A stretch of DNA of 64,000 nucleotides from NCBI RefSeq assembly GCF_007859755.1, contig NZ_SJPF01000004.1, positions 620,894-684,893 on the forward strand, written 5' to 3'. A model generated the notes under the pieces. It had not been told where the DNA came from. It made no database searches and was given only the letters and a program-made list of their open reading frames with translations. Of the stretch, positions 1,339-57,649 are shown one piece after another; position 1 is the stretch's first letter, and every line of letters begins with the position of its first letter. The position numbers were made by a program, and so were the translations under genes. Origin of the DNA: Blastopirellula retiformator (GTDB lineage Bacteria > Planctomycetota > Planctomycetia > Pirellulales > Pirellulaceae).

Positions 1339-1431
1339 TCTTCGCGGCTCGCAAAATAACGACTTACGTCGCTATTTTGGGATCGCATCCGTGCGATCAC
1401 GCAGTCCGTCGAAAAAATCAACGGACTGCTA
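1337..1431 (+). repeat. dispersed repeat family A, partial copy (three of four hairpins)
   Basis: The segment matches the right two-thirds of the full repeat at 24559-24712. It has a hairpin built on AAAATAACG/CGCTATTTT, a perfect hairpin GATCGCA-tccg-TGCGATC, and a CAGTCCGT/ACGGACTG pair. The first hairpin of the family is missing and replaced by the family E element. The right terminus ...GGACTGCTA overlaps the TAG stop codon (complement 1429-1431) of the next gene. Confidence 0.8.
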
Positions 1432-2787
1432 GTACCGACCGCGATTGTCGATCGCCGCCGCATTGGGCGTGACCGGCGTCTGGCCCGGCTTCGATTTCGC
1501 CGGCCCCAGATACTCGACAAACATCAGCCCATCGGCGCGAGCCGGGCTGCTGGGCAGGGGCAATGAGATTGGGAAAGAAGCGGCCGTTGAGACTCCCATA
1601 TCGGGCTGAGCCACCACGCCGCAGCTGATCAGCAGCACCTGATCCGATGGCCAGCGGAATCGCTCGTGCAGCCGCCAGCTGACCATTTGCGGAATTTGGA
1701 CCTGGATTGATTGCGAGCCGCCGGTGGCGGTCGGCACGTCGATATCGACGTTCACGAACTTCTCAATCTGGTCGACGCTGCACTTCAGCACCGCGTCAAT
1801 CGTGCGGTCGTCGGGGGCAAGCAGCGGGCTCACCTCCAGCGAAAAGCCGGCTTCGATCTGATCGCTTTGCAGTTCGTAACCCGGCCAGGCGGCGGTCGCA
1901 CGGACCGAACGCATGAACGTTTGCGGCTTGAGCATCGAGACCGCGCTTGATTGGCCATTGTGAATCAGCAGGTTCGCCGCTTGATGCTCTTTGTAGTCGC
2001 TCCGCTTGCGGAGGCTATCGAGCAGGATCGCCGCGTTTTCTTTGCTGAGCAGCCAGGCTTCGATCCCCGGCGTTTTCACCGAGACCGGCTGCATCATGCG
2101 GTAGGCCAGACGGCGCCAGTTCGGGCTTTTGACCGTTACCAGACGCAGCCCCAAGGTCTTTACTTCGGCCTGGCTTTCGACAAAATCTTCGACCACGTCC
2201 CGCACGATCTGTTGCATCTCGGGGGTGTGGTAGACCCGCAGGGTGTTCTTGTCGGCGTGCAGCAATCCCAACGGAGAACCAAACCAGACGTCGGTCCCCG
2301 TTTCTCGCAAGATCCAGTCGATGATCGCCTGTTCCGGCTTCGAGGTCGACGTGACCCGCAGCGTATAAGGAGTAATGTCATAGTCGCGCCAAACCTGACC
2401 TTGGTCATGCGGCAGTTCGTTCAAACCGCTGGTCACCTTCAGCAGCGAACCGGAAGCCGGCAGCGGCTCGCTACGCGTCGCGGCGCTCATCGGCGAAGCG
2501 GAATTCCCCGAGGAATAGGCGGACGCGGTTTTGATCGTTTCGCTAGGACTGCGCCAGGCCGAACTCGAGACGCCGGCCGGCTTTTCTGTCGATGTTGCAG
2601 TCGAAGGCGCCGGGGAAGTCGCCAAGGGAGCGGCGGCCGCCTTGTCGCTTTCGTTCAGCGGAGAAGGGGGGCGGACCGTTGGAATCGGGTGGGCGGTCGC
2701 CTGCGAGCTAACGCGTCCGTCGGTCTGGGCGAAGACCGGGCCGCCAATCAGTAGCAGGGTCAGCAATATCATCCATGTTCGCGTCAT
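1429..2787 (-). CDS. exported secretin-like protein
   Basis: The chosen ATG (2785-2787 complement) follows AAGGAC and starts directly with a signal peptide, MTRTWMILLTLLLIGG, probably cleaved after PVFA. A longer open frame upstream has no such logic. The mature protein has a Ser/Pro/Ala-rich linker to about residue 110. A folded region follows, with a segment resembling secretin N-domains (residues about 120-200, DYDITPYTLRV to VVEDFVES). A C-terminal part (GFSLEVSPLLAPDDRTIDAVLK, then VQIPQMVSWRLHERF) resembles the beta-rich secretin domain. At 452 residues it is short for a full type II or IV secretin. Family membership is my inference from pattern; the export signal is plain. Its stop codon lies in the edge of a family A repeat. 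Confidence 0.7.
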   Translation of the reverse strand: MTRTWMILLTLLLIGGPVFAQTDGRVSSQATAHPIPTVRPPSPLNESDKAAAAPLATSPAPSTATSTEKPAGVSSSAWRSPSETIKTASAYSSGNSASPMSAATRSEPLPASGSLLKVTSGLNELPHDQGQVWRDYDITPYTLRVTSTSKPEQAIIDWILRETGTDVWFGSPLGLLHADKNTLRVYHTPEMQQIVRDVVEDFVESQAEVKTLGLRLVTVKSPNWRRLAYRMMQPVSVKTPGIEAWLLSKENAAILLDSLRKRSDYKEHQAANLLIHNGQSSAVSMLKPQTFMRSVRATAAWPGYELQSDQIEAGFSLEVSPLLAPDDRTIDAVLKCSVDQIEKFVNVDIDVPTATGGSQSIQVQIPQMVSWRLHERFRWPSDQVLLISCGVVAQPDMGVSTAASFPISLPLPSSPARADGLMFVEYLGPAKSKPGQTPVTPNAAAIDNRGRY

Positions 2788-2963
2788 AGCCGTCGTCCTT
2801 GTCGGCACACAATCGAAACGCCAGCTTCGCTGCCGGCAGGGTCCGTAGTTCGGGCGGAGTATAGAAGTCGCGGGACAGACCAACAAGATCGATCAGCAGA
2901 ATCTTGGCCGAATCGCTCAAGTTCGGCCGGTCAGTTGCCGACAACCTGGGCTGCTAGCAGAAG

Positions 2964-3905
2964 CTACAGAAGATCGTTGAGCCAATCATCGTCCGACGGC
3001 TTCGGCTTGGCGGGAGCTTCCGCCACCGGCTTCGAAGCGGGCCTAGCAGGCGCCGCAGGCTTGGGTGCAGGCTTCGGTTTCGATCCGGCGGCGACGGTCG
3101 GCTTGCTGGCCAAATCGGGGCGAACCGGTTTTCGCTGCGGCTGTGCAGAAGCAGGTTTGGGCTTCGCCTGACCAGGGAGATCCGCGTCGGGCAGATCAAA
3201 ACTAAGGGGCTTGGTCGCCGCTGGCTTGCCGCCGGTCGTCGGTTTTGCGGTAGTGGCTGCTGCCGTTGCCGTTGCCGCTGGGGTCATTGGCGCCGAGGCG
3301 GGGGCCGTTTCCTTCGTTTTCCGCTCCGCGTCCTCTTTGGCCAAGATTCGCTTGCGGGTCGGGTCGTTTAGCAGCCCAATCAATTGCATGACCCGGTACC
3401 AAGCGATCCAGACGCCAATCAGCAGAGGAATGATCAACATCCCGGCCATGCCAAACCGCAGATGGGCCGCAGCCAAGGTGATGATGGTAACCACCGCCCC
3501 GGCGATGGCGGAGAAATTGAGGACGTCTTGAGGCCGCGAATTCTCGTGTAGCTGGTCGGCGAACCAACTTTCCCACTTGGTCTTCGGTTCTTCGCGGACG
3601 ACCATATTGTCGTCCTTGAGATCCTCGAAATAGGCTTCCAGCTCGAGATGCCAGCCACACTGGCTGCAAAGCTTGCCGCCCGGTTTCAGCGAATTGGCGC
3701 ACTTGGGACAAACGCGTCCTACATTCTGTTCTTCGAGTGGAACGGCCTCGTAATTGGCTTCGACCGGCTGGGCATAGCCCTCTTCGGGCGGCTTGATCGG
3801 CACCAGGCTGACGCACTGGGGACACCGGATTGTCTGGCCGGCAAGCTGCTCTTTGGCGCGCAACGACACGCCACAGCAGGGGCAAACGACCCGAATATCA
3901 GCCAT
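2964..3905 (-). CDS. zinc-ribbon membrane protein with Pro/Ala/Lys-rich tail
   Basis: This 313-residue protein has two zinc-ribbon modules. C8/C11 pair with C28/C31, and C66/C69 pair with C80/C83. Two probable membrane helices follow at about residues 130-150 and 153-175. The last third (about 195-300) is low-complexity, rich in Ala, Pro, Lys and Thr, and the protein ends in an acidic/aromatic DDDWLNDLL. The first ribbon has the same C-x2-C-x16-C-x2-C spacing and the same LAGQ turn as the ribbon of the divergently encoded MotA/ExbB protein at 4248. The two share an intergenic region of 342 bp. I do not know its function; a role next to the proton-channel complex is inference from the shared ribbon and shared control region. 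Confidence 0.8.
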   Translation of the reverse strand: MADIRVVCPCCGVSLRAKEQLAGQTIRCPQCVSLVPIKPPEEGYAQPVEANYEAVPLEEQNVGRVCPKCANSLKPGGKLCSQCGWHLELEAYFEDLKDDNMVVREEPKTKWESWFADQLHENSRPQDVLNFSAIAGAVVTIITLAAAHLRFGMAGMLIIPLLIGVWIAWYRVMQLIGLLNDPTRKRILAKEDAERKTKETAPASAPMTPAATATAAATTAKPTTGGKPAATKPLSFDLPDADLPGQAKPKPASAQPQRKPVRPDLASKPTVAAGSKPKPAPKPAAPARPASKPVAEAPAKPKPSDDDWLNDLL

Positions 3906-4247
3906 GAAAATTCCTTCATTAGACGAACCAGATGCGATTAATTTTCACGGCTATTGCGTAGAATTGCAACAAATGAGCTGCGAGTTGCTGGAGAAACGCA
4001 ATCGTGCTCGCAGATACGTAAGAAACCGGTATGTTTATTCCGTGACAGGGAATAAAAACAAGTTCAAAATCAGAATAAAGAGTATTAGGCCAGAGATGCG
4101 ATAGCTTTTTCCATTTTTCACCTAACCCCCCCGTACCAGGCAGTTTGGTTGCAAAAAGTGACCAGCTAGTGCATATCAGAAGAATACCGGCCCCCTTTTC
4201 TACCCCCCGCGGAACAGACCGCAGCATTCGCTCCCTCCTGAAAATCT
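3906..4247. other. 342-bp divergent intergenic region, AT-rich
   Basis: This stretch separates two divergent genes that share a zinc-ribbon module and should contain both promoters. It is clearly AT-richer than the flanking genes. The only structure I can point to is the inverted repeat at 4034-4056. A Shine-Dalgarno-like CTCCTGAAAATCT lies just before the ATG at 4248. No coding frame here looks real. Confidence 0.6.
4034..4056. promoter_or_regulatory. inverted repeat, candidate operator
   Basis: Perfect 8-bp arms TTTATTCC and GGAATAAA are separated by the 7-bp spacer GTGACAG. The site sits near the middle of the divergent intergenic region. It lacks a T-tract long enough for a terminator in either direction. 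A dimeric regulator site serving both genes is an inference. Confidence 0.35.
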
Positions 4248-5963
4248 ATGTATTTCAAATTTAAATGTCCGCAATGCGGCCAGTCGCTGAAAGTCCGCCA
4301 AGAACTCGCTGGCCAAAAACGGAACTGCCCCTACTGCAAAGCCAGCGTCCGGATCCCCAACACGACGGAAATTGATCTCGATCTGCCGCCGGTTGAATCG
4401 TCCGGTTTCCCCAGCTTCGACGAGGGTGACGCCGGCGGCGGTTTGGGCGGACTTGATCTTGGCAACCTCCAGACCGATCCGTTGTCGACCCGCAACGCTC
4501 CCAAGCAGGGCGGCGGCAAGAAAGCGGGGGCTCCCCCGACGAAACAACCAGCCAAACAGGCGGCGGCCGCCTCGAATGCATCTTCTTCGATCTCGGAAGG
4601 GGAATTCACCGATCCGAGCGATGTCGGTTTGCTGTGGCCTGGTATCTTCGGCTTCGCCACCGCCGCGGCGTTTCTGCTGCTGTTGTGGCCGTCGAAGGGA
4701 ACGTACCTCGGCGACCTGTTCCTCGCCGGCGGCGTGCAGGGTGTGGCGATTCAGTATCTGTCGACGTCTCTCTTTTTCTGGGCGATGGCGATTCTCTGGC
4801 TGAAGCAACGCAAGATCCGTCGTCAGCGCGATTACTTGCTGATGGACGTGTTGCCGACCGACATCTCGCCCGAGATTCGGATCGATACGCTCGACCGCTT
4901 TGTCGAAAACATTCGCCAACTGCCGGGCGAACATGGCGAAAGCTTCCTGATCAACCGCGTGCTTCGCGGTTTGCAGCACTTCCGCGTTCGCCGCAACGCC
5001 GCCGAAACGGTGACGATGATGGCGTCGCAGTCCGAAATCGACTCGAACAACGTCGTGTCGAGCTATACCGCTTTGAAGGTGCTGATCTGGGCGATTCCGA
5101 CGATGGGGTTCATCGGTACGGTGCTCGGTATTAGCTTGGCGGTCGCGTCGCTGGCCGGCGCCTTGGGGGGCAACGATCCTTCGCAGCTGATGTCCTCGTT
5201 GACGTTGATGTTCTCCGGTCTCGGCACCGCGTTTAATACGACGCTGGTCGCGCTGGTGATGAGCATGATTATCAAGTTCCCGATGTCCTCGCTGCAAAAG
5301 AGCGAAGAAGGGGTGCTGAACTGGGTCGACGAGTACTGCAACGAAAACCTGCTTCGCCGACTCAATGACGGTCGCGAACATGAAACCGTCAAACAGAACC
5401 ATCCGTACGACACGACCGTCTTCCGTCGCGCCGTCGAAGAAGCGATGGCGACGCAGCAGTCGGAACTGGAAGCCTGGACCCGGAAGCTGGAACTGGTCGG
5501 CGAAACGATCACCAAGCAGACGACCGACGGCTGGAGCGAAATCCAAGCGAAGCTGCTCGACAGCCAGAAGCAAATCACTTCGGAAGTGATGGAGCAGGTG
5601 CAAGCCAAGACCGGCGAAATGCAGACGCGTCAGGAAGAAATGCGGGTCGAACTGCAAGACCAGCTGACGCAGATGCAAGAGATCGCCGCTCAGCTGCAAG
5701 CCTCGCTGACGGCGCTGACCAGCGCGGCGATTCAGACCTCGAATCAGATGAACGCCAACGTCGACGCTTCGACCGAACGGCTGGAAGCTTACTTCTCCGG
5801 CGTCGCTGAGGGCCTAACCGGCCTGAACGACGTGCTGTCGAAGCTGGGTGACGAACGGGTCGTCGTGCAACAAGTCGAAGGTCCGGCCAACGGCAGCAGC
5901 GGCGGCGGTTGGTTCGGCTTTGGCGGCGGCGGCAAGAAATCGCGTCGTAACGGGAAACGATAA
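4248..5963 (+). CDS. MotA/TolQ/ExbB proton channel family protein with N-terminal zinc ribbon
   Basis: The protein has 571 residues. A zinc ribbon opens it (C7/C10, C27/C30), followed by a Gly/Pro/Ala linker. Probable membrane helices lie at about 128-148, 162-184, 276-304 and 320-344. The last pair carries the ExbB/TolQ signature: WAIPTMGFIGTVLGISLAV, then LMFSGLGTAFNTTLVALV. A long predicted coiled coil (about 395-540, many EMQ/LQ heptads) and a Gly-rich basic tail follow. ExbB/MotA proteins form the inner-membrane ring that turns proton flow into movement of a partner. The next two genes, 2 bp away and then overlapping, encode ExbD-like single-pass proteins, so the three form one operon and probably one complex. 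The cargo or outer partner is not evident. Confidence 0.9.
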   Translation: MYFKFKCPQCGQSLKVRQELAGQKRNCPYCKASVRIPNTTEIDLDLPPVESSGFPSFDEGDAGGGLGGLDLGNLQTDPLSTRNAPKQGGGKKAGAPPTKQPAKQAAAASNASSSISEGEFTDPSDVGLLWPGIFGFATAAAFLLLLWPSKGTYLGDLFLAGGVQGVAIQYLSTSLFFWAMAILWLKQRKIRRQRDYLLMDVLPTDISPEIRIDTLDRFVENIRQLPGEHGESFLINRVLRGLQHFRVRRNAAETVTMMASQSEIDSNNVVSSYTALKVLIWAIPTMGFIGTVLGISLAVASLAGALGGNDPSQLMSSLTLMFSGLGTAFNTTLVALVMSMIIKFPMSSLQKSEEGVLNWVDEYCNENLLRRLNDGREHETVKQNHPYDTTVFRRAVEEAMATQQSELEAWTRKLELVGETITKQTTDGWSEIQAKLLDSQKQITSEVMEQVQAKTGEMQTRQEEMRVELQDQLTQMQEIAAQLQASLTALTSAAIQTSNQMNANVDASTERLEAYFSGVAEGLTGLNDVLSKLGDERVVVQQVEGPANGSSGGGWFGFGGGGKKSRRNGKR

Positions 5964-5965
5964 CC

Positions 5966-6781
5966 ATGGCCAAACGCGCACAAGACGGGGGCGACGACGT
6001 CTCGCTCTTTCCGTTTCTTAGCGTGCTGGCTTGCGTTATCGGCACGCTTACGATGATCATCGCTGCGATCGCCGTCCAGGCGCTCGACAACGACACCGTC
6101 GACCAGGCGATGAAGTACGAAGAGAAGAAAGCGGAACTCGCCAACGCGGACGAAGAATTGGCGAAATTGAACGCCGAACTCAAAAAGAAAGAGACGGAGC
6201 TCAAGAAGACCCAGTCCGCCGAGCAAAAGGAGTTGGAAGACGCCAAAAAGCGTCTGGCCGAGTTGCTGGCGAAGCTGGAAGAAACGGAGACCAAGCTCGA
6301 TCAGATTTCGCTGGATGGTCCCAAAGTCGACCTCGCCGGCCAATCGGAAACCATCAGTGAGATGGAAGAAGAGCTGAAGTCGCGGCGCGAGAAAATCGCC
6401 CAGATGGAAAAAGAAGTCGCTGATCGCAAGCTGCCTCCCAAGGAATCGGAAGTTTCGATTCTGCCCGGCGGCTCTGGCGTCGGATTTGATCCGTCGTTCG
6501 TCGAATGCGACGACGGACGCATCGTCATCCATGATGGCGCCAAGACGACGCCGGTCCGCACCAACGAAATGAACACCAATCCGACGTTCATTAAACTGGT
6601 CGAAGAAGTAAAGGCGAATCCGAAAGGCCAGATCGTTTTTCTGATTCGCAACGACGGCTTGTCGACGTATCGCTCGGCGCGATCGCTCGTTAGCTCCAAG
6701 GGAGTCAAAAATGGCAAGTTGCCGGTCGTAGGCGACGGACGAATCGATTTGAGTTATTTCAAAAAGAAGAAACCGGAATAA
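5966..6781 (+). CDS. ExbD-like coiled-coil membrane protein lacking the channel Asp
   Basis: The protein has 271 residues. A short cytoplasmic start leads to one membrane helix (about 14-41, LFPFLSVLACVIGTLTMIIA). A long Lys/Glu-rich coiled coil runs to about 150, then a probable periplasmic domain that includes GGSGVGFDPSFVECDDGRI. In ExbD/TolR the helix begins P-x-x-D-V with an essential proton-carrying Asp. Here the same place reads PFLSV, so residue 19 is Ser. The start is 2 bp after the ExbB-like stop and the stop overlaps the next ATG (TAATG), which implies translational coupling. It is probably the non-protonatable half of a heteromeric stator with the following gene product; that pairing is inferred. 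Confidence 0.8.
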   Translation: MAKRAQDGGDDVSLFPFLSVLACVIGTLTMIIAAIAVQALDNDTVDQAMKYEEKKAELANADEELAKLNAELKKKETELKKTQSAEQKELEDAKKRLAELLAKLEETETKLDQISLDGPKVDLAGQSETISEMEEELKSRREKIAQMEKEVADRKLPPKESEVSILPGGSGVGFDPSFVECDDGRIVIHDGAKTTPVRTNEMNTNPTFIKLVEEVKANPKGQIVFLIRNDGLSTYRSARSLVSSKGVKNGKLPVVGDGRIDLSYFKKKKPE

Positions 6782-7899
6782 TGGCCCGACGAAAATCAAA
6801 CGACGACGAAGACGGCGGAATGGACTCGCTGCTCGACACGATGTTTAACGTGGTCGGCATTTTGCTGATCGTGTTGGTCGTCGTGCAGTTGGGCGTTCGT
6901 CAGGCGGTCGAGCGGATCGCCTCGACGGTGGCGGTCGACCCTGCGGCGCTCGAAGCGATGATCAAAAAGCTGGAAGAGACCCACAAAGAAAAGCTGGCGG
7001 TAAAGACGTCGCTCGACGATTTGGATCCGGACGAGTCGAAGCTGGAAGAGTTGCTCAAGCGGCTCCGCTCGGAATCGGTCGCCAAAGAAGCGACGCTGGT
7101 CGGCAAAGAGGGCCAGCTGAAAAAGGCGCTCGTCGCCAAAAAAGAACAAGACGAGATGATGAAGAAGGCGGGCGAGAACGAGAAATCCCGCGAGAAGTTA
7201 TCGACCGACTTGAACTCGAGCCTGGAGAAGATCGCCAGCCTGGAAGCGATTCTGGCCGATTCCAAGCCGCGCTCCCAATTGCCCCCCAAGATCGTCAATA
7301 TGCCCGATCCGCGCCCCGCGCCCGACGGCATCAAGGAGGCGCTCCTCCTGTGCATTGGCAACAAGGTCTATCCGCTCAATCCGACCGAACTTCGTGATGA
7401 CGCCAAAAAACGCTCGGAGTATCAGCTGCAGCGCGGCGTCAAAAAGTACGTGAAGGATCCGGCCCAAGGGGTCGAAGCGGAGAAGTTTGTTGAGGACTTC
7501 AATCAGCGCGTCTTGCAGGACGACTACTTCAAAGCCAAAATGTACGCTTCCGGACGGTCCCCCCGCCTGCGGCTAGAGCCGCGAGAAAGCGAAGGCTTCA
7601 CGATCGCCGAGATCGAAAACCCGCGCTCCCGGTTTCAGAAGCTGCTGCGGATGACCAATCCAGAGAAGTACTACTTCAAGTTTATCGTGCTCCCCGATAG
7701 CTACGAGGCGTACCTGGCCGTCCGCGCCGTCGCCGACAAGGCCGGCTATTTGGCCGGCTGGGATCCTCAGCCCGATACGTGGCGGTACACGACCTGGATC
7801 GGCGGCAAAGTGAAGTTCGGCCCCGAGCCGAAGGTCGATCCGAACGCTCCGAAACCAACGCCCAAACCGCCGGCGCCCAAGGCGAACGTGCTCGACTAG
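6781..7899 (+). CDS. ExbD-like coiled-coil membrane protein retaining the channel Asp
   Basis: The protein has 372 residues. An acidic N-terminus precedes a membrane helix at about 15-38 (DSLLDTMFNVVGILLIVLVV), with Asp19 where ExbD/TolR carry their proton-binding residue. A coiled coil spans about 55-160. A periplasmic region of about 200 residues follows, with a Pro/Lys-rich tail (PNAPKPTPKPPAPKA). It is co-translated with the preceding ExbD-like gene through a TAATG overlap. Both the Asp here and the Ser in the neighbour are residue 19 of their proteins, so the two are easy to compare. The C-terminal domain does not resemble OmpA in what I can read, so peptidoglycan binding is not shown. 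The TAG stop is the first three bases of a family A repeat edge. Confidence 0.8.
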   Translation: MARRKSNDDEDGGMDSLLDTMFNVVGILLIVLVVVQLGVRQAVERIASTVAVDPAALEAMIKKLEETHKEKLAVKTSLDDLDPDESKLEELLKRLRSESVAKEATLVGKEGQLKKALVAKKEQDEMMKKAGENEKSREKLSTDLNSSLEKIASLEAILADSKPRSQLPPKIVNMPDPRPAPDGIKEALLLCIGNKVYPLNPTELRDDAKKRSEYQLQRGVKKYVKDPAQGVEAEKFVEDFNQRVLQDDYFKAKMYASGRSPRLRLEPRESEGFTIAEIENPRSRFQKLLRMTNPEKYYFKFIVLPDSYEAYLAVRAVADKAGYLAGWDPQPDTWRYTTWIGGKVKFGPEPKVDPNAPKPTPKPPAPKANVLD

Positions 7900-7976
7900 C
7901 TGCCTGTTGAACAATGCCCTCGTGGCATTTTCCAACCTCGCCAGGCTCAGAGCATAGCTCCTCGCGGCTCCCAAAA
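7897..7976 (+). repeat. dispersed repeat family A, partial copy (left part)
   Basis: The sequence TAGCTGCCTGTTGAA, an AATGCCctcgtGGCATT hairpin and CCTCGCCAGGCTCAGAGCAT match the left end of the full copies at 24559 and 37079-37233 (reverse). The copy stops at GCGGCTCCCAAAA and lacks the right three hairpins. The leading TAG is the stop codon of the gene ending at 7899. Confidence 0.8.
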
Positions 7977-8004
7977 GCTCGGTCAACGCTGACCGAGCTT
8001 TTTT
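7973..8004 (+). terminator. intrinsic terminator of the ExbB/ExbD-like operon
   Basis: A perfect stem (AAAAGCTCGGTCA / TGACCGAGCTTTT) with loop ACGC is followed by a T-run. It begins where the truncated family A repeat breaks off, so repeat and terminator are fused. Confidence 0.8.
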
Positions 8005-8310
8005 CTTGCACGCAACTCTTGCGAATGCGGTAAGTACGTCCCGGTTGTATCGATCGCGCGGTCCAAAGTGCCGCCGTTCCGGCGTCCGATCCCCATGGAG
8101 CCTACTTTCGCCAGAAAAAAGTGAAATTGATTTCCTATTCATGACCTACTCTTTGGGAGTTCAGAGTTCACCCATTAGAGAGTGCCAAATTCTGAACGTG
8201 CTGCATTCCCACAACACTGCCCCAATCTAAACGTGGATCGACGACCGCATCTTGGCGGAAGGCGTGCGTCGACCAGCCCCACCGGTACAACGTAATTTCC
8301 GAGTCGCCCC
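8005..8310. other. intergenic region upstream of the Amt-kinase gene
   Basis: About 300 bp with no credible gene; a 74-codon frame here has no recognisable protein character. It presumably carries the promoter of the ammonium sensor gene. I see no clear -10/-35 pair or NtrC-type site. Confidence 0.4.
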
Positions 8311-11300
8311 ATGTCCGCTACCGCTGAATCCCTCGACATCACCTGGATTCTGATCTGTTCCGCATTGGTAATGCTAATGCAGGGCGGTTTCTGCCTGCTG
8401 GAAAGTGGGATGGCGCGGGCGAAGAACAGCTTTAACGTCGCCCTGAAAAACCTGATCGACTTTTGCGTTTCCAGCGTCGTGTTTTGGACGTTCGGTTTCG
8501 CGCTGATGTTTGGCGTCAGCTACTACGGCCTGTTCGGCACGACCAATTTCTTCCTGGAAGGGGACGCTTCTCCCTGGTTGATGGCGTTCCTGCTGTTTCA
8601 GCTGATGTTCTGCGGCGCCGCGACGACGATTATCGCGGGCGCCGTGGCCGAGCGGATTCGCTTTCAGGGATATCTGATCATCAGCGTGTTCGTCTCGGCG
8701 ATCATCTACCCGCTGTTTGGCCACTGGGCCTGGGGTGGCGCGATCGAAGGGACGCCGACCGGCTGGCTGGCGCAACTCGGCTTCATCGACTTCGCCGGCT
8801 CGACCGTCGTCCACTCGGTCGGCGGCTGGGTCGCCCTGGCGGCGGTCTTGGTGATCGGACCGCGCCTAGGCCGCTTCGACGGCAACGAAGAAAAACCGAT
8901 CTCGGGCCACAACCTGACCCTGGCGACCTTCGGAGCGCTCGTCCTGTGGTTCGGCTGGTTCGGCTTCAACGGCGGCAGCACGCTCGCCATGAACGGATCG
9001 GTTCCCAAAATTCTGGTGAACACCAATCTCGCCGGCGCCATGGGCGCTCTGGCGGCGCTCGTCCTTTCCCAATGGGTTAGCAAGCGTCCCGACGTTGGTC
9101 AGGTGATGAACGGCGCTATCGCGGGGCTGGTCGGCGTGACCGCTTCGTGCCATATCTTGGCGCCGTGGGCCGCGGCGGTGGTTGGCGCCGGATCGGGCCT
9201 GGTCTGTAGCGGCGTCAGCTACTTGCTGCCGAAGTTGAAGATCGACGACGTAATCGGCGCGGTGCCGGCGCATGCCTGTGCCGGCTGTTTCGGCACGGTA
9301 GCGCTGGCGCTATTGGCCGATCCGGTCCACTTTGGCGAAGGCGTCACCCGTTGGCAACAACTTGGTATCCAACTGGTGGGCGTGACGACCTGCTTTGCCT
9401 GGTCGTTTGGCGGCGGCTTTATCGTCATCACGATCGCCAACCGGATCGCTCCGCTCCGCGTCTCTCGCGAACAAGAGCTTGACGGCCTGAACATCTCGGA
9501 GCATGGCGCCAGCACCGAACTGATCGACCTGCTGACCGACATGCAGCGGCATCGCAGTCTGGGCGACTTCTCGGAGGACGTCCACGTCGAGCCGCATACA
9601 GAGGTGGGTCAGATCGCCGCCGAGTACAACCGCGTGCTCGCCAAAGTGAACAGCGAGATGGCCCAGCGTGGCGAGGCCCAACGCCGCTTCCGCGAGATCT
9701 TTGAGAACGCCGTCGAAGGGATTTATCAAACGACGCCGGAAGGGTTCTTCATCACCGCTAATCCGGCGCTGGCGCGGTTGCTCGGCTATTACGATCTGGC
9801 GTCGCTGCGCGACGAGATCCAGGACGTTGCGATCGACGTCTATGTGGACCGCAATCGCCGTCAGAACTTTATCGACGAAATCGAACAGAACGGCGTCGTC
9901 TTCGGCTTCGAGTCGGAAATTCGCCGCGCCAACGGAACAATCGCCTGGATTTCGGAAAACGCCTCGGCCCGCCGCAATCACAACGGCGACGTCCTTTACT
10001 ACGAAGGAACGGTCGAAGACATCACGCAGCGCCGGAAGGCGGCGCAGCTGGCCGACGAAATCAAAGCGGCCGAAGCGGCCAACGAAGCGAAGAGCACCTT
10101 CCTGGCCAGCATGAGCCACGAGATCCGCACGCCGCTCAATGGCGTGATCGGGTTCCTCGATCTGCTGCACACCACGCGGATGGACGATCAGCAACAGCGT
10201 TTCGTCGAACTCGCCAAGTCCTCGGCCGGATCGCTGTTGCACCTGATCAACGACATCCTCGACCTCTCGAAAATCGAAGCCGGCGGGATCGAACTCGAAC
10301 AGACCGAGTTCGTCCTGACCGACCTGATCGAGTCGGTTCCCGAGATGTTCGCGCCGCAGTGCCGGATGACCGGGCTCGAGCTGAACAGCAGCATCGCCTC
10401 CGACGTTCCCCAGGCGGCGATCGGCGACTGCGAACGGATTCGCCAGGTGTTGGTCAACCTGTTTTCCAACGCGGTGAAGTTTACCGAAACCGGCGGCGTC
10501 TACCTGCGGGTTGAGCGTGAACGTTCGGTCCCGACCAGTTCCGACGCCGTCGCCCGCATTCGCTTCTCGGTCGAAGATACCGGCATCGGCGTGCCTCGCG
10601 CCAAGATGCAGCGGCTGTTCAAAGCGTTTTCGCAAGTCGACGCTTCCACAACGCGGCGATACGGCGGCACCGGGCTCGGCTTGGCGATCTGCAAACAGTT
10701 GGTCGAGTTGATGGGGGGCGAAATCGGCGTCGAGAGCGAAGTCGGCAAGGGCTCGACCTTCTGGTTCACGCTGCCGCTCGAAGCGATCGAACGTTCGACC
10801 TGCAATCAAATCCCCAACATTCAAGGTCTGCGGGTGTTGGCGGTCGACGACAACCACATGAACCTGCAGGTGATCAACGAACAGCTGCAATCGTGGGGCG
10901 TCGATGTGGCGACGGCCGGCAACGGCCGACGCGCTTTGGCCTTGCTGGAAGATGCGGCGAACCGAAACGTGCCGTTCCAGCTGGCGATCCTCGATCACCT
11001 GATGCCGGAACTGGATGGATTGCGTCTGGCCCATTTGATACACGACCACGACAAGCTGCAGTCGACGCGGCTGCTAATGCTCACATCGTACCAACAAACG
11101 ATCCCGCCGGCCGAACTGAAACAGCTGGAGATGCTCTGCCTGCCCAAACCGGTTCGTCAGACGCGGCTGCTCGACGCGCTGGTCGCAATGACGGGCCAGC
11201 GTTCGCCCAGGCTGTTGTCCGGCGAAGGCGAAACCGAAGCGACGACCGAGCCCCGGGCTCCGCTGGATGACAAGATCCTGGTCGTCGACGACAACGAGAT

Positions 11301-12090: not shown

Positions 12091-12097
12091 ACCAACG

Positions 12098-24473: not shown

Positions 24474-24558
24474 GTAGGGTCCGCTGTGCGGACCAAGGAG
24501 GCGGCAACCAATTTTGCCAACCGCTTGAGCACTTCGTGGACCGCACAGCGGACCCTAC
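24474..24558. repeat. dispersed repeat family F, copy 1 (85 bp, inverted ends)
   Basis: The 22-bp ends (24474-24495 and 24537-24558) are inverted copies of each other with one mismatch. They begin GTAGGGTCC and contain the nested palindrome GGTCCGC-tgt-GCGGACC. The interior is unrelated to that of the second copy at 52913. The right end joins a family A repeat directly. Bases 24245-24473, between this and the WcaJ-like start, hold no gene and presumably the promoter. Confidence 0.85.
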
Positions 24559-36690: not shown

Positions 36691-37078
36691 GGAAACTCCT
36701 CTGTTCCTGAGAGTTCGCCGCTCATAGTGCAAGAGTCGTGCCACAAATGATTCTACATGACCTGTATGAAGAGGCTTACGGGACGAAATTGAATACGGGT
36801 CGCGGAAAAATAGGAACGTTTCGTATCAGTAGGATTTAGTTTTTCGACAATGGCCCCGGCAATCCCATAGAGTGCCGTTTAACGGCATTTGTATGAACGG
36901 TTACTCTTTTTCTGCTATTCTGTACTCTTCCCGGGCCGCTCCCCCGAATTAACCGCGAATTCACCAAGCGCAACTGCTTGCTGATCTGCCAGCTGGCGTC
37001 CTAACAACCACGCCGATTAGGAAACGAGCAACAGCTAGCGAAGATAGTGAGCAAAACGCAAACAGATGCTTTGATGCC
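36691..37078. other. AT-rich intergenic region upstream of opgG
   Basis: Nearly 400 bp with no gene. It is visibly AT-richer than its surroundings and should carry the opgG promoter (minus strand). A small GTGCCGT-ttaACGGCAT hairpin is near 36870. No repeat from elsewhere in the window occurs before the family A element at 37079. Confidence 0.4.
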
Positions 37079-37233
37079 TAGCAGTCCGTTGATTTTCTCG
37101 ATGGACTGCGTGATCGCAGGGATGCGATCCCAAAATAGCGACGTAAGTCGTTATTTTGGGAGCCGCGAAGAGCTACGCTCTGAGCCTGGCGAGGTTGGAA
37201 AATGCCACGATGGCATTTTTCAACAGGCAGCTA
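37079..37233 (-). repeat. dispersed repeat family A, full copy, inverted
   Basis: This is the reverse complement of the 24559-24712 repeat with scattered substitutions; it keeps all four hairpin modules in order. Its edges are TAGCAGTCC (37079) and GGCAGCTA (37233), so both termini begin TAGC when read inward. An open frame reading into the oxidoreductase gene crosses it, which explains a spurious 85-codon N-terminal extension. Confidence 0.88.
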
Positions 37234-37301
37234 CCCGACTTACTCCCTCCCAAATCTACCTCACGCTGCGGCGCCAACTGCCCCAACCCAAGACCTCAAC
37301 C

Positions 37302-47591: not shown

Positions 47592-49619
47592 ATGTTCGCT
47601 AAAAATATTTTCGTCACAGGTGTGCTGGTAGCGGCGATGCTGTTGCCAACCGCCACGTTCGCCCGTGGGTTCGGGGGCGGAGGGGGCAAAGGAGGCGGAG
47701 GGCCTCGGATCGGGGGCGGAGGCAAGAGCCCCTCGATGAGTCGCCCCAACATCAGTCGCCCCAGCCCCAGTCGATCGCTCCCGAGCCGCTCTAGCGGCAG
47801 TCGACCGAATATCAGTCGACCCAGCGCGAGTCTGCCGAGCGCCAGCCGCAGCCCCGCCAGTCGCCCTTCGGTCAACCTATCGAATCGCGGCGGCTCGCGG
47901 CCTTCGATCAGCTTGCCCTCTAGCGGTAGTCGTCCCAACGTCACCCGACCGTCGAGTCTGCCGAACCTGAATCGCCCCTCACTGGGAGACAATAACCGCG
48001 GCCGCACGCGCCCCAGCATCAACACGCCCAGCTTGAGTCGCCCCAACGTGACGCGGCCTAGTAGTGTGACGCGGCCCAATAGCGGCGACCGCAGCCGTCC
48101 GAACATCACAGCCCGGCCCAACTTGGACGGCAACCGTGGCGGCAGCATCTCCGGCGGGCGACCGTCCAACCAGAGACTGAATGATTTTCTGGGAATCGGC
48201 GGTGATCGACCTGGTTCGCAACGACCAACGACCCGCCCCGGCAACCTTGGCAACCGCCCCAGCGGCGATCGACCAACAACGCTGCCTGGCATCATCGGCA
48301 ATCGCCCCGGCGGCGATCGTCCCACGACGCGTCCCGGGATCATCGGCGATCGCCCCAACCGACCTGGCAACGGTGACCGCCCCAGCATCGGCGACCGGCC
48401 CAACCGTCCTGGCAACGTTGACCGTCCCGGCATCGGCGATCGGCCCAATCGACCTGGCGATGGTGACCGGCCCGGCATCGGCGATCGCCCCAACCGACCT
48501 GGCGATGGTGACCGGCCCGGCATCGGCGATCGGCCCAACCGACCTGGCGATGGTGACCGACCGGGCATCGGCGATCGGCCCAACCGACCTGGCAACGGTG
48601 ACCGCCCCAGCATCGGCGACCGGCCCAACCGTCCTGGCAATGGTGACCGTCCCGGCATCGGCGATCGGCCCAATCGACCTGGCGATGGTAACCGGCCCGG
48701 CATCGGCGATCGGCCCAACCGACCTGGCGATGGTGACCGGCCCGGCATCGGCGATCGGCCTAACCGACCTGGCGATGGTAACCGGCCTGGACTCGGCGAT
48801 GGCAATCGGCCCAACCGCCCGAATCGTCCTGATCGCCCGCATGGCCCGGGCCATGACGATCATTGGGATCACTGGCACAACCGGGGCGACTATGTTCGCA
48901 ATCGGTATAACTACTGGAGCGCCCGCAACAACTGGAACCATGGTTTCTGGGGTTGGAACAATCCTCGCTACAATCGCTGGGGCTTCTACGGCTATCGTCC
49001 GTACCCGGGGTATTGGTGGCGGTGGTCGACGCCGGTAGCGCTTACCTCGTGGTTCTACTGGGGTCCGTCGTGGGGCACGCCATGCTACTACGATTACGGC
49101 TCGAACGTTTACTTCCAAGATCGGTACGTTTACTACAACAGCGAGCCGATTGCGACCACGACCGTCTACTACCAACAGGCTTCCGATTTCGCGGCGGCCG
49201 GACGTGAGGCCCTGGCCGAAAGTCCGCCGACCGAAGAAAGTGGTGAGAACTGGATGCCGCTCGGCGTCTTCGCCCTGGCCAACCAGGAAGAAGGGGATCC
49301 GATCATGTATCTGCAGTTGGCGGTCAACAAGGACGGCGTCATCGCCGGCACCTACTACAACACCGAGACCAAGACCAACTTGCCGGTCGAGGGGAGCGTC
49401 GACAAAGAGTCGCAACGCGCCGCCTGGACGATCGGCGACAAGACCCAAACGGTCATGGAAACCGGCATCTACAACCTGACCCAGGACGAAACGCCGCTGC
49501 TGATTCACTTCGGCGAAGGCAAGACGCAAACCTGGATGCTGGTTCGCCTGCCGGAAGGAGAAGCGCAGCCCAACGAAGGCTTCGCCGATCCGAATGCGGT
49601 CGATCCGTTTGGTCCGTAG
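47592..49619 (+). CDS. large secreted Arg/Pro/Asn-rich repeat protein
   Basis: The ATG at 47592 has GAGG six bases upstream; an in-frame ATG four codons earlier is less well placed. The 675-residue protein begins with a signal peptide (KNIFVTGVLVAAMLLPTATFA), then GFGGGGGKGGGG. About 180 residues of SRPNISRPS-type repeats follow, then ten exact-length 15-residue repeats (G-I-GDRPNRPGDGDRP). A short Trp/Tyr/Asn-rich zone comes next (DHWDHWHNRGDY, YRPYPGYWWRW). A C-terminal domain of about 130 residues (LGVFALANQEEGDP, LAVNKDGVIAGTYYN) closes the protein. Highly basic and disordered; probably matrix- or nucleic-acid-binding, which is inferred. A strong terminator follows. Confidence 0.82.
   Translation: MFAKNIFVTGVLVAAMLLPTATFARGFGGGGGKGGGGPRIGGGGKSPSMSRPNISRPSPSRSLPSRSSGSRPNISRPSASLPSASRSPASRPSVNLSNRGGSRPSISLPSSGSRPNVTRPSSLPNLNRPSLGDNNRGRTRPSINTPSLSRPNVTRPSSVTRPNSGDRSRPNITARPNLDGNRGGSISGGRPSNQRLNDFLGIGGDRPGSQRPTTRPGNLGNRPSGDRPTTLPGIIGNRPGGDRPTTRPGIIGDRPNRPGNGDRPSIGDRPNRPGNVDRPGIGDRPNRPGDGDRPGIGDRPNRPGDGDRPGIGDRPNRPGDGDRPGIGDRPNRPGNGDRPSIGDRPNRPGNGDRPGIGDRPNRPGDGNRPGIGDRPNRPGDGDRPGIGDRPNRPGDGNRPGLGDGNRPNRPNRPDRPHGPGHDDHWDHWHNRGDYVRNRYNYWSARNNWNHGFWGWNNPRYNRWGFYGYRPYPGYWWRWSTPVALTSWFYWGPSWGTPCYYDYGSNVYFQDRYVYYNSEPIATTTVYYQQASDFAAAGREALAESPPTEESGENWMPLGVFALANQEEGDPIMYLQLAVNKDGVIAGTYYNTETKTNLPVEGSVDKESQRAAWTIGDKTQTVMETGIYNLTQDETPLLIHFGEGKTQTWMLVRLPEGEAQPNEGFADPNAVDPFGP
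48339..48788 (+). repeat. tandem repeat, 10 x 45 bp, within the coding sequence
   Basis: Ten in-frame 45-bp units encode GIGDRPNRPGDGDRP variants. The first five and last five units are nearly the same in order, so the sequence at 48361 recurs at 48586, exactly 225 bp on. The array therefore grew by a five-unit block duplication. Confidence 0.9.
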
Positions 49620-49638
49620 GGAAGTTGTCAACAACACG

Positions 49639-49673
49639 AAAGGCGGCGCACTTTGGTGCGCCGCCTTTTTTTC
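49639..49673 (+). terminator. intrinsic terminator of the repeat protein gene
   Basis: The stem AGGCGGCGCAC-tttg-GTGCGCCGCCT is followed by TTTTTTTC, 20 bp after the stop codon. Confidence 0.9.
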
Positions 49674-49796
49674 GTTCTTGGTAGCGATCTCATGGTTTCT
49701 GCGTGAACGCAAACCATGGTGGTCGTGTCTCCCGGTAAAATCTCCCCCATCGAACCTCTCAACCGACGTGCAAAAAGTGCGGCCCCAGGAGGCGCC

Positions 49797-51293: not shown

Positions 51294-51675
51294 GGCAGCA
51301 ATTTCTTTACGAGCCCACAGCGCAAAGAGCGGCGCATTCAACCGTAGTCTGGGCCAAAAAAGGCTTGCAAAACTGCCTGGCATTTCGTACACTACACCCC
51401 TTAAAGTTGCGGGCGTCTGATCAATCGCCCGCCGAGCCAAAATTCTTCGCGCCCTGCATGGCGGCAAGGCGATTTTTCCAAGCACGCAGGTCGCTGATGG
51501 CCCTTCCTGCGCGCTGAGCGAACCAACTTCCCACCGGGCGCCACTGGCCTTCCGTCAGTGCTCTTCAGATCGAAGTGACGCGGTCGAAGTACGGAGCTGG
51601 ATATCGATTCACGGAAGACACTGGCTGCAGGCCAGTGGCACCCAGATTTTGTTTTCACAAACCAAGGGAAATCTC
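51294..51675. other. 382-bp intergenic region with short palindrome
   Basis: There is no credible gene; a minus-strand 85-codon frame is not supported. A palindrome CACTGGC-tgcag-GCCAGTG lies at 51619-51637, 38 bp before the ATPase start. A weaker CACTG/CAGTG pair is near 51542-51560. These resemble REP-type palindromes. Nothing else is seen. Confidence 0.45.
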
Positions 51676-52956
51676 ATGCGCCGAGCCCGAATTCAGAAGT
51701 TTCAAACCCGGATGCGTCAGTTGCGGAAAGAGCTGCGAGCGAAGGAAACTGCCGAACAATTCGCCGCCGACCGAACGAAAATCATCGAGCGGCTCGACGC
51801 GTTGACCGCCGACGATTCCGCTTCCAAGGATATCGACTTCTTCCGCTGCGATGTCGGCGGCGGTGATGAGGCGAAAGAGACGCATCGCACGCTCTCGACT
51901 GCCGAAATGCTCGCCGAGCGAAAGCCGCAGGCGTGGCTCTTCCCGAATTTGCTCACCAAGAACGAACCGGCGGTGATCGTTGGCCCGAGCAAGACATTAA
52001 AGTCGTCGCTGGCGGTCGATCTGTGCGCGGCGCTCGCGACCGGCGGCAAGTTTTTGGGGGAGTTCGCCGCCGAAAAGGTGTTCCGCGTCGGCTTTGTTGG
52101 CGCCGACAACAAGCAATCGCAGCTCACCGACTTGGCGGTCCGGTGGAGCGCTGCCCGCGAGGAAAACCCAACGCTCGACAACCTGCAGTGGTTCATGGCG
52201 GTCGAGGAGCCGGCAGCTCCAGAGAACCTGGAGAGCCTGAGGGAGTGGATCGAGAAGTTTGAACTGGAAGTCGTCGTGATCGATCCACTGCGTCTTGGCT
52301 CCACCAACAAACGGAAGCAGGCCGAAGCAATTCAAACGCTGGTGAAAACCATTTCGAATGCCGGCGCCACGCCGATTCTCTGCGTGCAAACTCGCAAAGA
52401 AATGAAACCGGGCAAACTCGACGCCTCGATCTTGGCCGGCAGTCTCGACTTCGCCCAGCAATGGCTGCTGGTGAATCGCCGCGAAACGTTTCAAAGTGGC
52501 AGCGGGCAACACAAGCTGTGGCTGTCGATCGGCGGCTACGCCGGGCAAGGTGGCGAATGGGGCGTCGATATCGACGAAGGCAAACTGACCGATGAGGGGG
52601 GCCGCCGCTGGAATGTCCGCTTGCGCGAAGCGACCGAGATCGAAGCCGCCGCGAAGCAGGCGAAAGAATACGTGAAATTCGAAAAGCTCGAGTCGCAACT
52701 TCGCCGCGTCCTGCTCGACGCTGGTGAAAACGGCCTCTGCAAATACAACATCCGCAGCAACAGCGGCATGAGCGGCAGCAAGTTCGGCCCGACCTGGGAC
52801 CGGATGATGACCGCGGGGAAGATTGTCGAGATGCCGAAAGAACCCCATTCGACGCTCAAGCGATATACGTTGCCGCCGGGCGAAGAAAAAAATGAAACGG
52901 GGCGATCCAGTCGTAGGGTCCGCTGTGCGGACCACGAACCTGCTCAACAAGCATGA
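51676..52956 (+). CDS. RepA-like AAA/RecA-fold ATPase with repeat-derived C-terminus
   Basis: The ATG at 51676 follows AAGGGAAA and gives 426 residues. A basic coiled-coil N-terminus (RMRQLRKELRAKE) precedes a RecA-fold domain: PAVIVGPSKTLKSSLAVDLCAAL (Walker A), VFRVGFVGADNKQ, LEVVVIDPLRLG (Walker B) and GATPILCVQTRKE. A C-terminal winged-helix-like segment (LRRVLLDAGENGLCKYNIRSN) follows. Similar ATPases occur as replicative helicases of plasmids and phages and as chromosomal orphans. No other mobile-element gene is near. The last 15 codons are read from a family F repeat (RVRCADHEPAQQA), so the native C-terminus was probably replaced. Confidence 0.82.
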   Translation: MRRARIQKFQTRMRQLRKELRAKETAEQFAADRTKIIERLDALTADDSASKDIDFFRCDVGGGDEAKETHRTLSTAEMLAERKPQAWLFPNLLTKNEPAVIVGPSKTLKSSLAVDLCAALATGGKFLGEFAAEKVFRVGFVGADNKQSQLTDLAVRWSAAREENPTLDNLQWFMAVEEPAAPENLESLREWIEKFELEVVVIDPLRLGSTNKRKQAEAIQTLVKTISNAGATPILCVQTRKEMKPGKLDASILAGSLDFAQQWLLVNRRETFQSGSGQHKLWLSIGGYAGQGGEWGVDIDEGKLTDEGGRRWNVRLREATEIEAAAKQAKEYVKFEKLESQLRRVLLDAGENGLCKYNIRSNSGMSGSKFGPTWDRMMTAGKIVEMPKEPHSTLKRYTLPPGEEKNETGRSSRRVRCADHEPAQQA

Positions 52957-53013
52957 GCAACGGGCGCCAAATGACCGATGTGGCAGGCTCTTGGTCCGCA
53001 CAGCGGACCCTAC
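52913..53013. repeat. dispersed repeat family F, copy 2 (101 bp, perfect 22-bp inverted ends)
   Basis: Ends at 52913-52934 and 52992-53013 are perfect inverted copies starting GTAGGGTCC, identical to the left end of copy 1 at 24474. The interior differs. It covers the 3' end and stop codon of the ATPase gene. Bases 53014-53163 hold no gene; ...TCGCTGGCGCG-TCGGGGCCCTAC near 53130-53161 may be another degenerate repeat. Confidence 0.88.
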
Positions 53014-53163
53014 GGGGATGGGGGCTCGAAAAAAACGTGCGCTGCGGTCCGGTTTGTTGGCTTGCGGGCGGATTCCCTCGGCTTGCGCACTTGGGTTAGT
53101 GTGTGGCGTCAGACCGCTTTCCGCTTTTCGCATTTCCCTCGCTGGCGCGTCGGGGCCCTACGG

Positions 53164-54102: not shown

Positions 54103-54213
54103 CGTAGCGCACTTCTCCTTACGATTGCATCATACTGAATCGTCGCTTTTGCAGATAGCGGCGATTCCTCCCCCCATCTTCCGGAACCGTGACGCGTAAG
54201 ACGGATGTAACGC

Positions 54214-56060: not shown

Positions 56061-57490
56061 AAACCGGCAAGAGAAAAGCAACAAAGCCCAGACCTTCGGT
56101 AGCGATCGTCGGCGGCGGTTTAGCAGGCCTGGCGGCCGCCGAAGCGCTGTCGCGCAGCGGCATGCTGGTCACGCTGTTTGAGTCGCGGCGTTATCTCGGC
56201 GGCCGGGCCGGTTCGTTTTGCGATGAATCGACTGGGCAGCTCTTTGATCACTGCCAGCATGTGGCGATGGGCTGCTGCACCAACTTCCTTGACTTCTGCC
56301 AGCAAACGGGCGTCGCCCAGCTTTTCCGCCGTGACCGCAAACTGCACTACATCGACGCCCGGGGGAAGGTTTATCCGTTCGCGCCGGTCGAAGCCTTTCC
56401 GGCGCCGTTGCACTTAGCGCCGGCGTTTTTACGACAAGGCTATTTGACGCTGGGAGAGCGACTGGACATCGGGACGGCGCTGCGCCGCATGGCGCAGTTG
56501 ACCGAAGAGCAGGCCGAAGCGCTGCACGTTGGCCCGTGGCTACGCGAACGAAATCAATCGCCCGCCGCCATCAAGCGTTTTTGGGAAGTGATCTTGGTCA
56601 GCGCTTTGGGAGACTCGATCGAGAAGACGTCGGTCGCCGCCGCGCGGAAGGTGATGATCGACGGGTTTCTCGCGCATCGTCATTCGGCCGACTTGCATGT
56701 GCCGGCCGCGCCGCTGGGGCGGATTTACGAAGAAGGTATCGCCCGGGCGCTGTTCGATCGGGGCGTCCGCATCGAGCTAGAGTCGCCGGTCGACGAGGTC
56801 TTTCGCAAATCGGTCGGCAGCGGCTTTAGCGTTTCGGTCAAAGATGAAGAGACGCTTCATTTTGACAACGTCGTGATGGCGACCCCCGGACGCCGCGTGA
56901 AAGCGGTCTTGGCGCCACGACTGTTTGAGAAGGTTCCTGATCTGGCTCGCGTCGACAAGTTCACTCACGCGCCGATCACCAGCGTCCACCTGTGGTACCC
57001 ACAGCCGATTACCGACCTGCCGCATGCGGTGCTGCTCGATCGCACCAGCCAGTGGTTGTTCGCCCATGGCGAGGGGAAATCGCCGCACAATGGCGAGACG
57101 CCGGCGTTCTACTATCAGGTCGTCATAAGCGCGTCGTACAACTTGCCCAGCGGCGATCAGCAGGCGACCATCGAAATTGTCACCCGCGAATTGTCGGAGC
57201 TTTGGCCAGCGGCCGCGTCGCCGCTGTTGGCCCGCGTGCTGACGCAACGGCAAGCGGTCTTTTCGGCGGCGCCGGGGCTAGAAGCGATTCGACCGCCGCA
57301 AGCGACGCCGGTGACCGGATTGTATTTGGCCGGCGATTGGACCAAGACGGGTTGGCCGGCGACGATGGAAGGGGCGGTTCGCAGCGGTCGACTTGCGGCC
57401 GAAGCGCTCTGCCGCCGGTATGATCAGAACGACTCGCTCGTCACGCCCGAGCTCTCGCACTCGTGGCTTTGCCGCAAGCTCTACTACTAG
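56057..57490 (+). CDS. hpnE: hydroxysqualene dehydroxylase HpnE
   Basis: The protein has 477 residues, with a start overlapping the hpnD stop. The N-terminal FAD fold VAIVGGGLAGLAAAEALSRSG and the YLGGRAGSF second signature identify the phytoene desaturase-like family. SVHLWYPQPITDLPHAVLLDRTSQWLF and GLYLAGDWTKTGWPATMEGAVRSG support HpnE. It reduces hydroxysqualene to squalene. The C-terminus ends ...KLYY and the TAG stop lies in the edge of a family E repeat. No squalene-hopene cyclase is in this window. Confidence 0.93.
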   Translation: MKTGKRKATKPRPSVAIVGGGLAGLAAAEALSRSGMLVTLFESRRYLGGRAGSFCDESTGQLFDHCQHVAMGCCTNFLDFCQQTGVAQLFRRDRKLHYIDARGKVYPFAPVEAFPAPLHLAPAFLRQGYLTLGERLDIGTALRRMAQLTEEQAEALHVGPWLRERNQSPAAIKRFWEVILVSALGDSIEKTSVAAARKVMIDGFLAHRHSADLHVPAAPLGRIYEEGIARALFDRGVRIELESPVDEVFRKSVGSGFSVSVKDEETLHFDNVVMATPGRRVKAVLAPRLFEKVPDLARVDKFTHAPITSVHLWYPQPITDLPHAVLLDRTSQWLFAHGEGKSPHNGETPAFYYQVVISASYNLPSGDQQATIEIVTRELSELWPAAASPLLARVLTQRQAVFSAAPGLEAIRPPQATPVTGLYLAGDWTKTGWPATMEGAVRSGRLAAEALCRRYDQNDSLVTPELSHSWLCRKLYY

Positions 57491-57649
57491 AGCGGTTTTC
57501 TTCAATCTTTAGCGTTGTGGCTGGTTGCGGCCGCGCTGGTCGATGTTGACCTGCATCGACGAATCTTGAGGATTCGCCTGCTTCGGTCGCCTTGACCAGC
57601 TTGCCTCACCAACGCCAGAAACGCTACAGCTATCAGAAAAACGCTCTAG
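57487..57649 (-). repeat. dispersed repeat family E, copy 2 (163 bp)
   Basis: The element runs from CTAGAGCGG to CGCTCTAG, with inverted ends, and is the reverse complement of 1182-1338 apart from a few substitutions and small gaps. Its first four bases include the hpnE stop codon. It fills nearly all the space between the convergent hpnE and VWA genes. No coding capacity is seen. Confidence 0.88.

Follow-up and report, generated by a model that had tools for sequence, protein, structure and literature searches.

Two families of short inverted-repeat elements in the genome of Blastopirellula retiformator (6.20 Mb), designated A and E, appear to be mobile repeats that target a TA-centred motif and rebuild stop codons upon insertion, with stops and 3′ spacers acting as safe harbours for their copies. 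We assign this interpretation a probability close to 0.9; it draws on the observed termini, target duplications and target motif, on repeat-free sites in congeneric genomes and on the distribution of the copies. The families were encountered in a stretch of 64,000 nt (NZ_SJPF01000004.1:620,894-684,893; G+C content of 60%), hereafter the window, in which a reading of the bare sequence (the original prediction) had pointed out hairpin repeats with TAG edges coinciding with the stop codons of neighbouring genes.

Copies were counted in a sample covering 1.83 of the 6.20 Mb (C4 and C3:1-800000), where full copies were detected via their paired ends and genes (774 + 640) were called with our own codon-usage scorer rather than a standard program. 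The sample holds 141 full copies, including 108 of A and 33 of E. Both families are non-coding and have paired termini, as expected of short elements with terminal inverted repeats, the length being 149 bp in 82 of the 108 A copies and 157 bp in 22 of the 33 E copies (other E sizes are 101 and 111). The two ends of A (CAGTCCGTTGATTTT / CTGCCTGTTGAAAAA) are imperfect inverted repeats only. For both families, the description adopted here is CAGYCYGTTGA or GAGCGNTTTTC at the ends, with duplication of YTAR or TA. Copies are numerous and closely similar to each other, with median pairwise identities of 0.946 (82 A) and 0.955 (22 E). Collectively, A and E look like two families of miniature inverted-repeat transposable elements (MITEs), new representatives of an ordinary kind of bacterial mini-transposon.

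A duplicates mostly a YTAR tetranucleotide, and E duplicates TA within YTAR. The 4-bp flanks of A are identical in 81 of the 108 full copies, the duplicated tetranucleotides being CTAG (25), TTAG (20), CTAA (11), TTAA (8), ATAG (5) and GTAG (4), as well as CTAT, CTAC and others; around YTAR, A displays a weak additional symmetric preference (A/T at -4, G/C at -2). Copies of E are flanked by TA at either end in 28 of 33 cases; the left flank is YTA in 30, the right flank is TAR in 30, and a 4-bp repeat is found in none (0/33).

We propose that these target preferences explain the association with stops in the following way. YTAR is its own reverse-complement pattern and forms part of every TAA or TAG stop that has C or T before it, so that an insertion there restores the stop and leaves the protein unaltered. 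Such insertions would survive because the protein is unaltered, insertions within genes or promoter-side spacers would mostly be lost, and copies would thereby accumulate at stops and just behind them. The stop left by each family follows from the same scheme, with A leaving TAG or TAA because the duplicated target retains its own third base, and E leaving TAG because the first base of the element is G. Of the A copies at stops, 20 display TAG and 14 TAA, and E copies display TAG at 16 of 16 edges. One E copy of 101 bp (C4:99755-99855; L065:19755-19855) has both edges at the stops of two convergent genes, so that a single CTAG seems to have served both.

The window was compared with three genomes of the same genus, G001, G002 and G003, aligned by synteny. 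The copies that it contains and the repeats and hairpins relevant to their interpretation are as follows:

1184-1340, minus strand: family E element with E termini; TA target at 1182-1183; the right flank is TTC, not TA, and abuts a truncated A copy
1337-1432, minus strand: truncated family A copy, left end only; target CTAG at 1429-1432
7896-7976, minus strand: truncated family A copy, right end; target CTAG at 7896-7899
7976-8004, plus strand: native terminator-like hairpin with a T run, 3′ of gene 6781-7899 (identified by eye)
24474-24558, unstranded: GTAG-tagged palindrome pair, a separate class serving as contrast set, of the kind described in passages of PMC3733652
24559-24709 (24555-24713 with flanks), minus strand: full family A copy with CTAC on either side
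37082-37230 (37078-37234 with flanks), plus strand: full family A copy with flanks CTAG and CTAC; absent from G002
52912-53014, unstranded: GTAG-tagged palindrome pair; gene 51676-52956 (AAA_25) has its 3′ end within it
57490-57646, plus strand: full family E copy between TA at 57488-57489 and TA at 57647-57648

A stop edge is present in three of the six A/E copies of the window. Positions 1429-1431 are the stop codon of the minus-strand gene 1429-2886, TAG 7897-7899 is that of gene 6781-7899 and TAG 57488-57490 is that of hpnE; a called gene thus bears out the predicted in-frame stop at each of the three sites. The copy at 57488 is full, and those at 1337-1432 and 7896-7976 are truncated A copies. 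The identity of hpnE was likewise correctly predicted (TIGR03467, 402 bits against a cut-off of 283), but the names secretin-like and ExbD-like, given to the products of genes 1429-2886 and 6781-7899, respectively, could not be upheld, neither protein matching Pfam or NCBIfam at an E value of 0.001. The TAG had also been regarded as the edge of the elements themselves. For A, this is incorrect, the whole tetranucleotide being target DNA; for E, it holds in part, as TA is target and G is the first base of the element.

Comparison with the congeners indicates that the stops were in place before the repeats arrived. At the three sites in question, the A/E repeat is absent in 9/9 comparisons with G001-G003 and the stop lies at the same codon in 9/9 (by eye). 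In the order G001, G002, G003, the stop reads TAA, TAA, TAA at the 1429 site, TAG, TAA, TAG at the 7899 site (CTCGACTAG, CTCGACTAA, CTCGACTAG) and TAG, TGA, TAG at the 57490 site. The spacer after hpnE differs, with 189 nt of other sequence in G001 and 303 nt in G003 between the aligned flanks (by eye). Of 23 full copies examined in a part of C4 against G002, both flanks were located for 15 and a flank was missing for 8; among those 15 sites, 12 are empty, that is, with flanks less than 120 nt apart, and three have larger gaps, two adjoining copies (620290, 620442) mapping to a single G002 site. None of the A/E matches listed in G002 falls within the compared stretch. The clean case is the copy at C4:701311-701459, which has TTAG on both sides here and corresponds to a single TTAG without the element in G002. 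At six stop-edge sites with a G002 counterpart, a stop is found at the aligned codon in 6/6 (TAA, TAA, TGA, TAG, TAA, TAA; by eye). Given that congeners have the stop at the same codon without the A/E repeat, the stops are older than the repeats and a 3′-end function is not needed to explain them. The predicted arrival of the stop, or of the 3′ end, as a module together with the repeat is thus not supported at these sites, the outcome being the very one that the original prediction had named as contrary to it.

At two of six compared sites, hpnE and the 24.5-kb site, G003 carries palindromic repeats of another type that are bounded by CTAG (CTAGCCCGCCAGCG..CGCTGGCGGGCTAG; by eye), a palindrome of this kind, different from E, being included in its spacer after hpnE; the 24.5-kb site also holds an E-like TAGAGCGG..CGCTCTA element (by eye). 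Apparently, CTAG-edged repeats recur across the genus.

The distribution of copies across the sample departs from chance. An edge lies exactly at a stop in 49 of the 141 full copies (34 A and 15 E); orphan ends (34 A left, 19 A right, 11 E left and 6 E right) were left out of these counts, and the expectations rest on 139 usable copies, two A copies being excluded for want of a usable NTAN target. Unoccupied non-coding sites with the matching tetranucleotide yield an expectation of 24.6, and none of 20000 simulations reaches 49; the expectation is 11.4 when coding sites are allowed and 25.0 when occupied sites are added to the non-coding pool. The predicted enrichment at stops beyond chance is thereby supported in the enlarged copy set. 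It was weaker in a smaller sample, restricted to C4 and obtained with another copy finder (A, 13/56 versus 8.9, P = 0.10; E, 5/15 versus 2.7, P = 0.12), from which the enlarged run differs by paired-end detection and by the addition of short E copies.

With respect to gene orientation, 49 copies are in convergent, 72 in tandem and 20 in divergent spacers, against expected values of 24.6, 72.8 and 41.6 (chi-square P = 2.6e-8). The ratio of observed to expected copies is 2.04 at the stop, 1.44, 0.82, 1.75 and 1.28 in successive bins to 160 nt, 0.55 beyond 160 nt and 0.46 where no gene 3′ end points in. A called gene spans only 1 of the 141 copies; two were flagged as being inside a gene, namely, that copy and an E copy located between two stops. 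Judging from the distance profile and from the comparison within the 3′ zone given below, most of the bias is towards the 3′ side and non-coding DNA, and what is left at the stops themselves is small. The target motif, exclusion from coding regions and avoidance of promoter-side regions together explain most of the excess. Among the 1414 called genes, 602 end in TAA, 583 in TAG and 229 in TGA; so high a share of TAG is unusual at a G+C content of 60% (the window value).

Could the TAG edge itself be the cause, a TAG-edged repeat often handing an in-frame stop, by chance, to any open reading frame (ORF) that enters it? According to passages of PMC3733652, the ends of GTAG-tagged repetitive extragenic palindromes (REPs) ‘often provide’ TAG stops. 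Of 48 GTAG palindromes in this genome, however, a single one lies at a stop (37 are intergenic and 10 coding), so that a TAG edge by itself does not explain the association. Furthermore, genes running into an A or E copy with the stop inside it number four, versus 50 edge stops among the 141 elements, and the orthologues end at the same codon, which refutes chance for the three cited sites; we regard this explanation as hardly credible.

The repeats at 24474 and 52912 both begin with GTAG. The latter is probably the repeat that had been assigned to a family F, said to cover the 3′ end of a gene in the manner of the TAG-edged copies. It does so, supplying the TGA of the AAA_25 gene 51676-52956 and about 14 codons before it, but its TAG edge is not that stop. 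Close homologues (86-96%) of this gene are located at C4:60536-62171 and C3:707296-708540. An IS200-like Y1 transposase at L061:3483-4112 (PF01797, 47.8 bits) is a candidate mover of the GTAG palindromes; its score against the REP-associated model NF047646 is 48.9 bits, under the cut-off of 80. Elsewhere in the window, a coding region at 48251-48880 contains a tandem array with a period of 45 nt.

Several observations weigh against the interpretation of A and E as mobile repeats harboured at stops. Identical 4-bp flanks are lacking in 27 of the 108 A copies, probably due to mutation, nesting or rearrangement, an explanation offered for the group rather than copy by copy. Within the zone from the stop to 160 nt downstream, 49 of 102 copies are at stops, against 38.0 expected from same-tetranucleotide sites (P = 0.017), or 38.7 with occupied sites added (P = 0.024); by family, the figures are 34/77 versus 28.0 for A (P = 0.09) and 15/25 versus 10.0 for E (P = 0.035). 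A small residual excess at the stop itself, of about 1.3-fold, is thus left unexplained by motif and zone, and all stop and intergenic counts depend on our own gene calls. Finally, searches through five Pfam families, with paired ends scanned for in the 1.83-Mb sample, or some 30% of the sequence, found no transposase with A-like or E-like ends. PF13358, PF13586 and PF13546 had no matches in the genome, and the loci matching PF01609 and PF13751 have other ends where these could be located, none being located for L113 and L126.

The residual at stops might mean active targeting of stops or translation-termination regions, beyond YTAR, by the transposases or by a host factor. The excess within the 3′ zone would fit such targeting, as would the weak symmetric preference of A around YTAR and, when the extended motif is used as a weight, the count for E (15/25, expected fraction 0.406, P = 0.040). 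With the same weighting, however, A shows 34/77 (expected fraction 0.369, P = 0.11); 92 of the 141 copies are away from stops, the effect is small and it depends on the gene calls. We therefore find active targeting distinctly unlikely, and selection, rather than targeting, is probably behind the 3′ bias.

According to the original prediction, A and E might act as exchangeable 3′-end modules, copies at stops being kept because their hairpins terminate transcription or stabilize mRNA. Both families indeed have very stable predicted folds (A, -82.4 kcal/mol, z -9.5; E, -72.7, z -6.5), yet strong folding is expected for any inverted-repeat element. The excess at convergent and 3′ positions and the small residual at stops would agree with such a role, and 23 of the 34 A copies at stops face the gene 3′ end with their right end (P = 0.058), whereas E has no orientation bias (10 versus 6, P = 0.45). 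Published MITEs, such as ERIC and NEMIS, have been implicated in mRNA regulation in parts of a review (PMC2229807). Nevertheless, the orthologues manage without A/E in 9/9 comparisons, and a terminator-like hairpin shared with G001-G003 is still present downstream of the A remnant after gene 6781-7899 (by eye). A terminator consensus scan, which did not list this by-eye hairpin (7976-8004), found none at 37000-37400, where a full A copy resides, and 10 at 1000-9000, where two truncated A copies and one E are located, against 9.1 expected, that is, no excess. An Rfam search of the window returned zero matches. Taken together, a 3′ function is possible for single copies but is not needed, and as a general explanation it is very unlikely.

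The predicted mobile and non-autonomous nature of the elements is supported, and candidates for the parent of A were considered and rejected. An element of 1709 bp, bounded by A ends and encoding a 429-aa transposase (L127, L129 and L137), proved to be a separate insertion sequence (IS) inserted into A. This IS, of 1.55 kb, encodes a 429-aa DDE_Tnp_1 transposase, has CAATACNGTTCGGCAC ends and generates a 9-bp duplication, some copies being shorter; it sits at the same CCACGANGG hairpin loop of A in five copies and in both orientations (L127:968-2518, L129:1182-2732, L130:1182-2732, L137:863-1969 and L103:2932-4105, the last being C4:842932-844105). It is also found in L128, outside A, and one of its ends in L136. 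Family A is thus a landing pad for another element. A 1781-bp TTAG-flanked pair on C3 consists of two tiny A-like hairpins with an acetyltransferase-like gene (named by eye) between them. The IS1182-type gene next to one of the A copies (L114) is part of an element class whose ends are GAGGCTGTGA, as found in its own copy and in four of the six relatives inspected. Among multi-copy proteins in the sample, no A/E ends were found at the boundaries of the four groups, out of 11, inspected by eye.

Tiny A-like hairpins of 26-27 bp occur in the C3:326840-326869 region (L154) and at C4:753812-753838 (L098); the former has TTAG on both sides and comprises little beyond the two ends. Another CTAG-centred target is represented by the IS at L132:872-2707, which has a 553-aa DDE_Tnp_1 open frame and a 6-bp CCTAGT duplication.

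A and E can be compared with several known systems. RUP of Streptococcus pneumoniae and other TA-ended bacterial MITEs, reviewed in PMC2229807, resemble both families, as far as the relevant sections describe them, in being short and non-coding, in their terminal inverted repeats, TA ends, target duplication and high copy number, and in their presumed mobilization in trans. RUP differs in that it is linked to IS630-Spn1 via its ends; IS630-type PF13358 has no match in this genome, and A duplicates 4 bp, unlike the 2 bp of RUP-type elements. E could be compared to an IS630/Tc1-mariner derivative on account of its TA duplication, but no IS630-type transposase with matching ends was found among the families searched.

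IS701 prefers YTAR, and PF13546, which we take to be the IS701 model, has no match in this genome; no IS701-type transposase with matching ends was found among the families searched. A resembles IS701-type elements in the length of the duplication: nearly all elements of this type duplicate exactly four bp (PMC2266710, in the portions consulted), as does A in 81 of 108 copies. Any transposase class named for A or E is presumptive.

GTAG REPs, as portrayed in parts of PMC3733652, are palindromes found chiefly in spacers of unidirectional or convergent gene pairs, and they are reported to supply neighbouring ORFs with TAG stops. They and their REP-associated tyrosine transposases (RAYTs) differ from the present families: REPs are 20-40-bp palindromes with an unpaired GTAG tag, moved by a tyrosine transposase, whereas A and E are mostly ~150 bp in length and have long inverted repeats and target duplications. 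ERIC/RU-1 elements of enterobacteria, 127-bp MITE-like intergenic repeats in the account given by part of PMC2759123 and implicated in mRNA stability in a passage of PMC2229807, are likened to A/E by description.

Both families have relatives in other genomes. A yielded 380 first-look candidates in its own genome, where 40 of 40 scored ones match, and two, six and five matches in G001, G002 and G003, respectively, among 14 scored of 21, 14 and 17 candidates. The far greater abundance of A here than in the congeners, together with the similarity of its copies, indicates that much of the expansion followed the split. Counting its own, 9 of 60 genomes contained A; copies related to it occur in other families of the order (G025, G027 and G033 are order-level genomes that carry A), and the ends of these copies lie mostly at YTAR or another NTAN. 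E was present in 8 of 40 genomes, including its own, and near-full-length E was confined, among these 40, to its own genome and G003; in G002, G017, G021, G027, G029 and G035, the match is limited to ~40-55 bp from the middle of E. This middle segment (CTGCATCGACGAATC..GATTCGCCTGCTTCG; window 57545-57594; L179-L187) is 79-92% conserved in other genomes and, in several of them, is embedded in other long palindromic repeats with different arms (by eye). Pattern scans of named genomes, in a collection from which the B. retiformator genome is possibly absent, returned 0 and then 10 matches, one in a Planctomycetaceae metagenome-assembled genome and the others in unrelated groups.

Our literature search on mobile repeats and stop codons, which left subscription journals largely outside, found no title or opening of an abstract on YTAR insertion rebuilding stops. 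A further idea, which we consider rather unlikely, is that two unrelated lineages with different duplication lengths converged on YTAR because a stop codon with a pyrimidine before it has this sequence. If so, the stop would be a safe harbour reusable through target specificity, beyond selection following insertion, most stops being TAG or TAA. The reading that we favour, whereby insertions at YTAR rebuild the stop, would provide a simple quantitative account of small repeats hugging stops, as a palindromic TA-centred target would regenerate TAA or TAG, making stops one of the rare places at the edge of a gene where an element can insert at no cost. Accordingly, reports of repeats ‘providing’ stops should be checked against repeat-free orthologous sites before a function is inferred, and the same test may be used on other TA- or CTAG-targeting elements.

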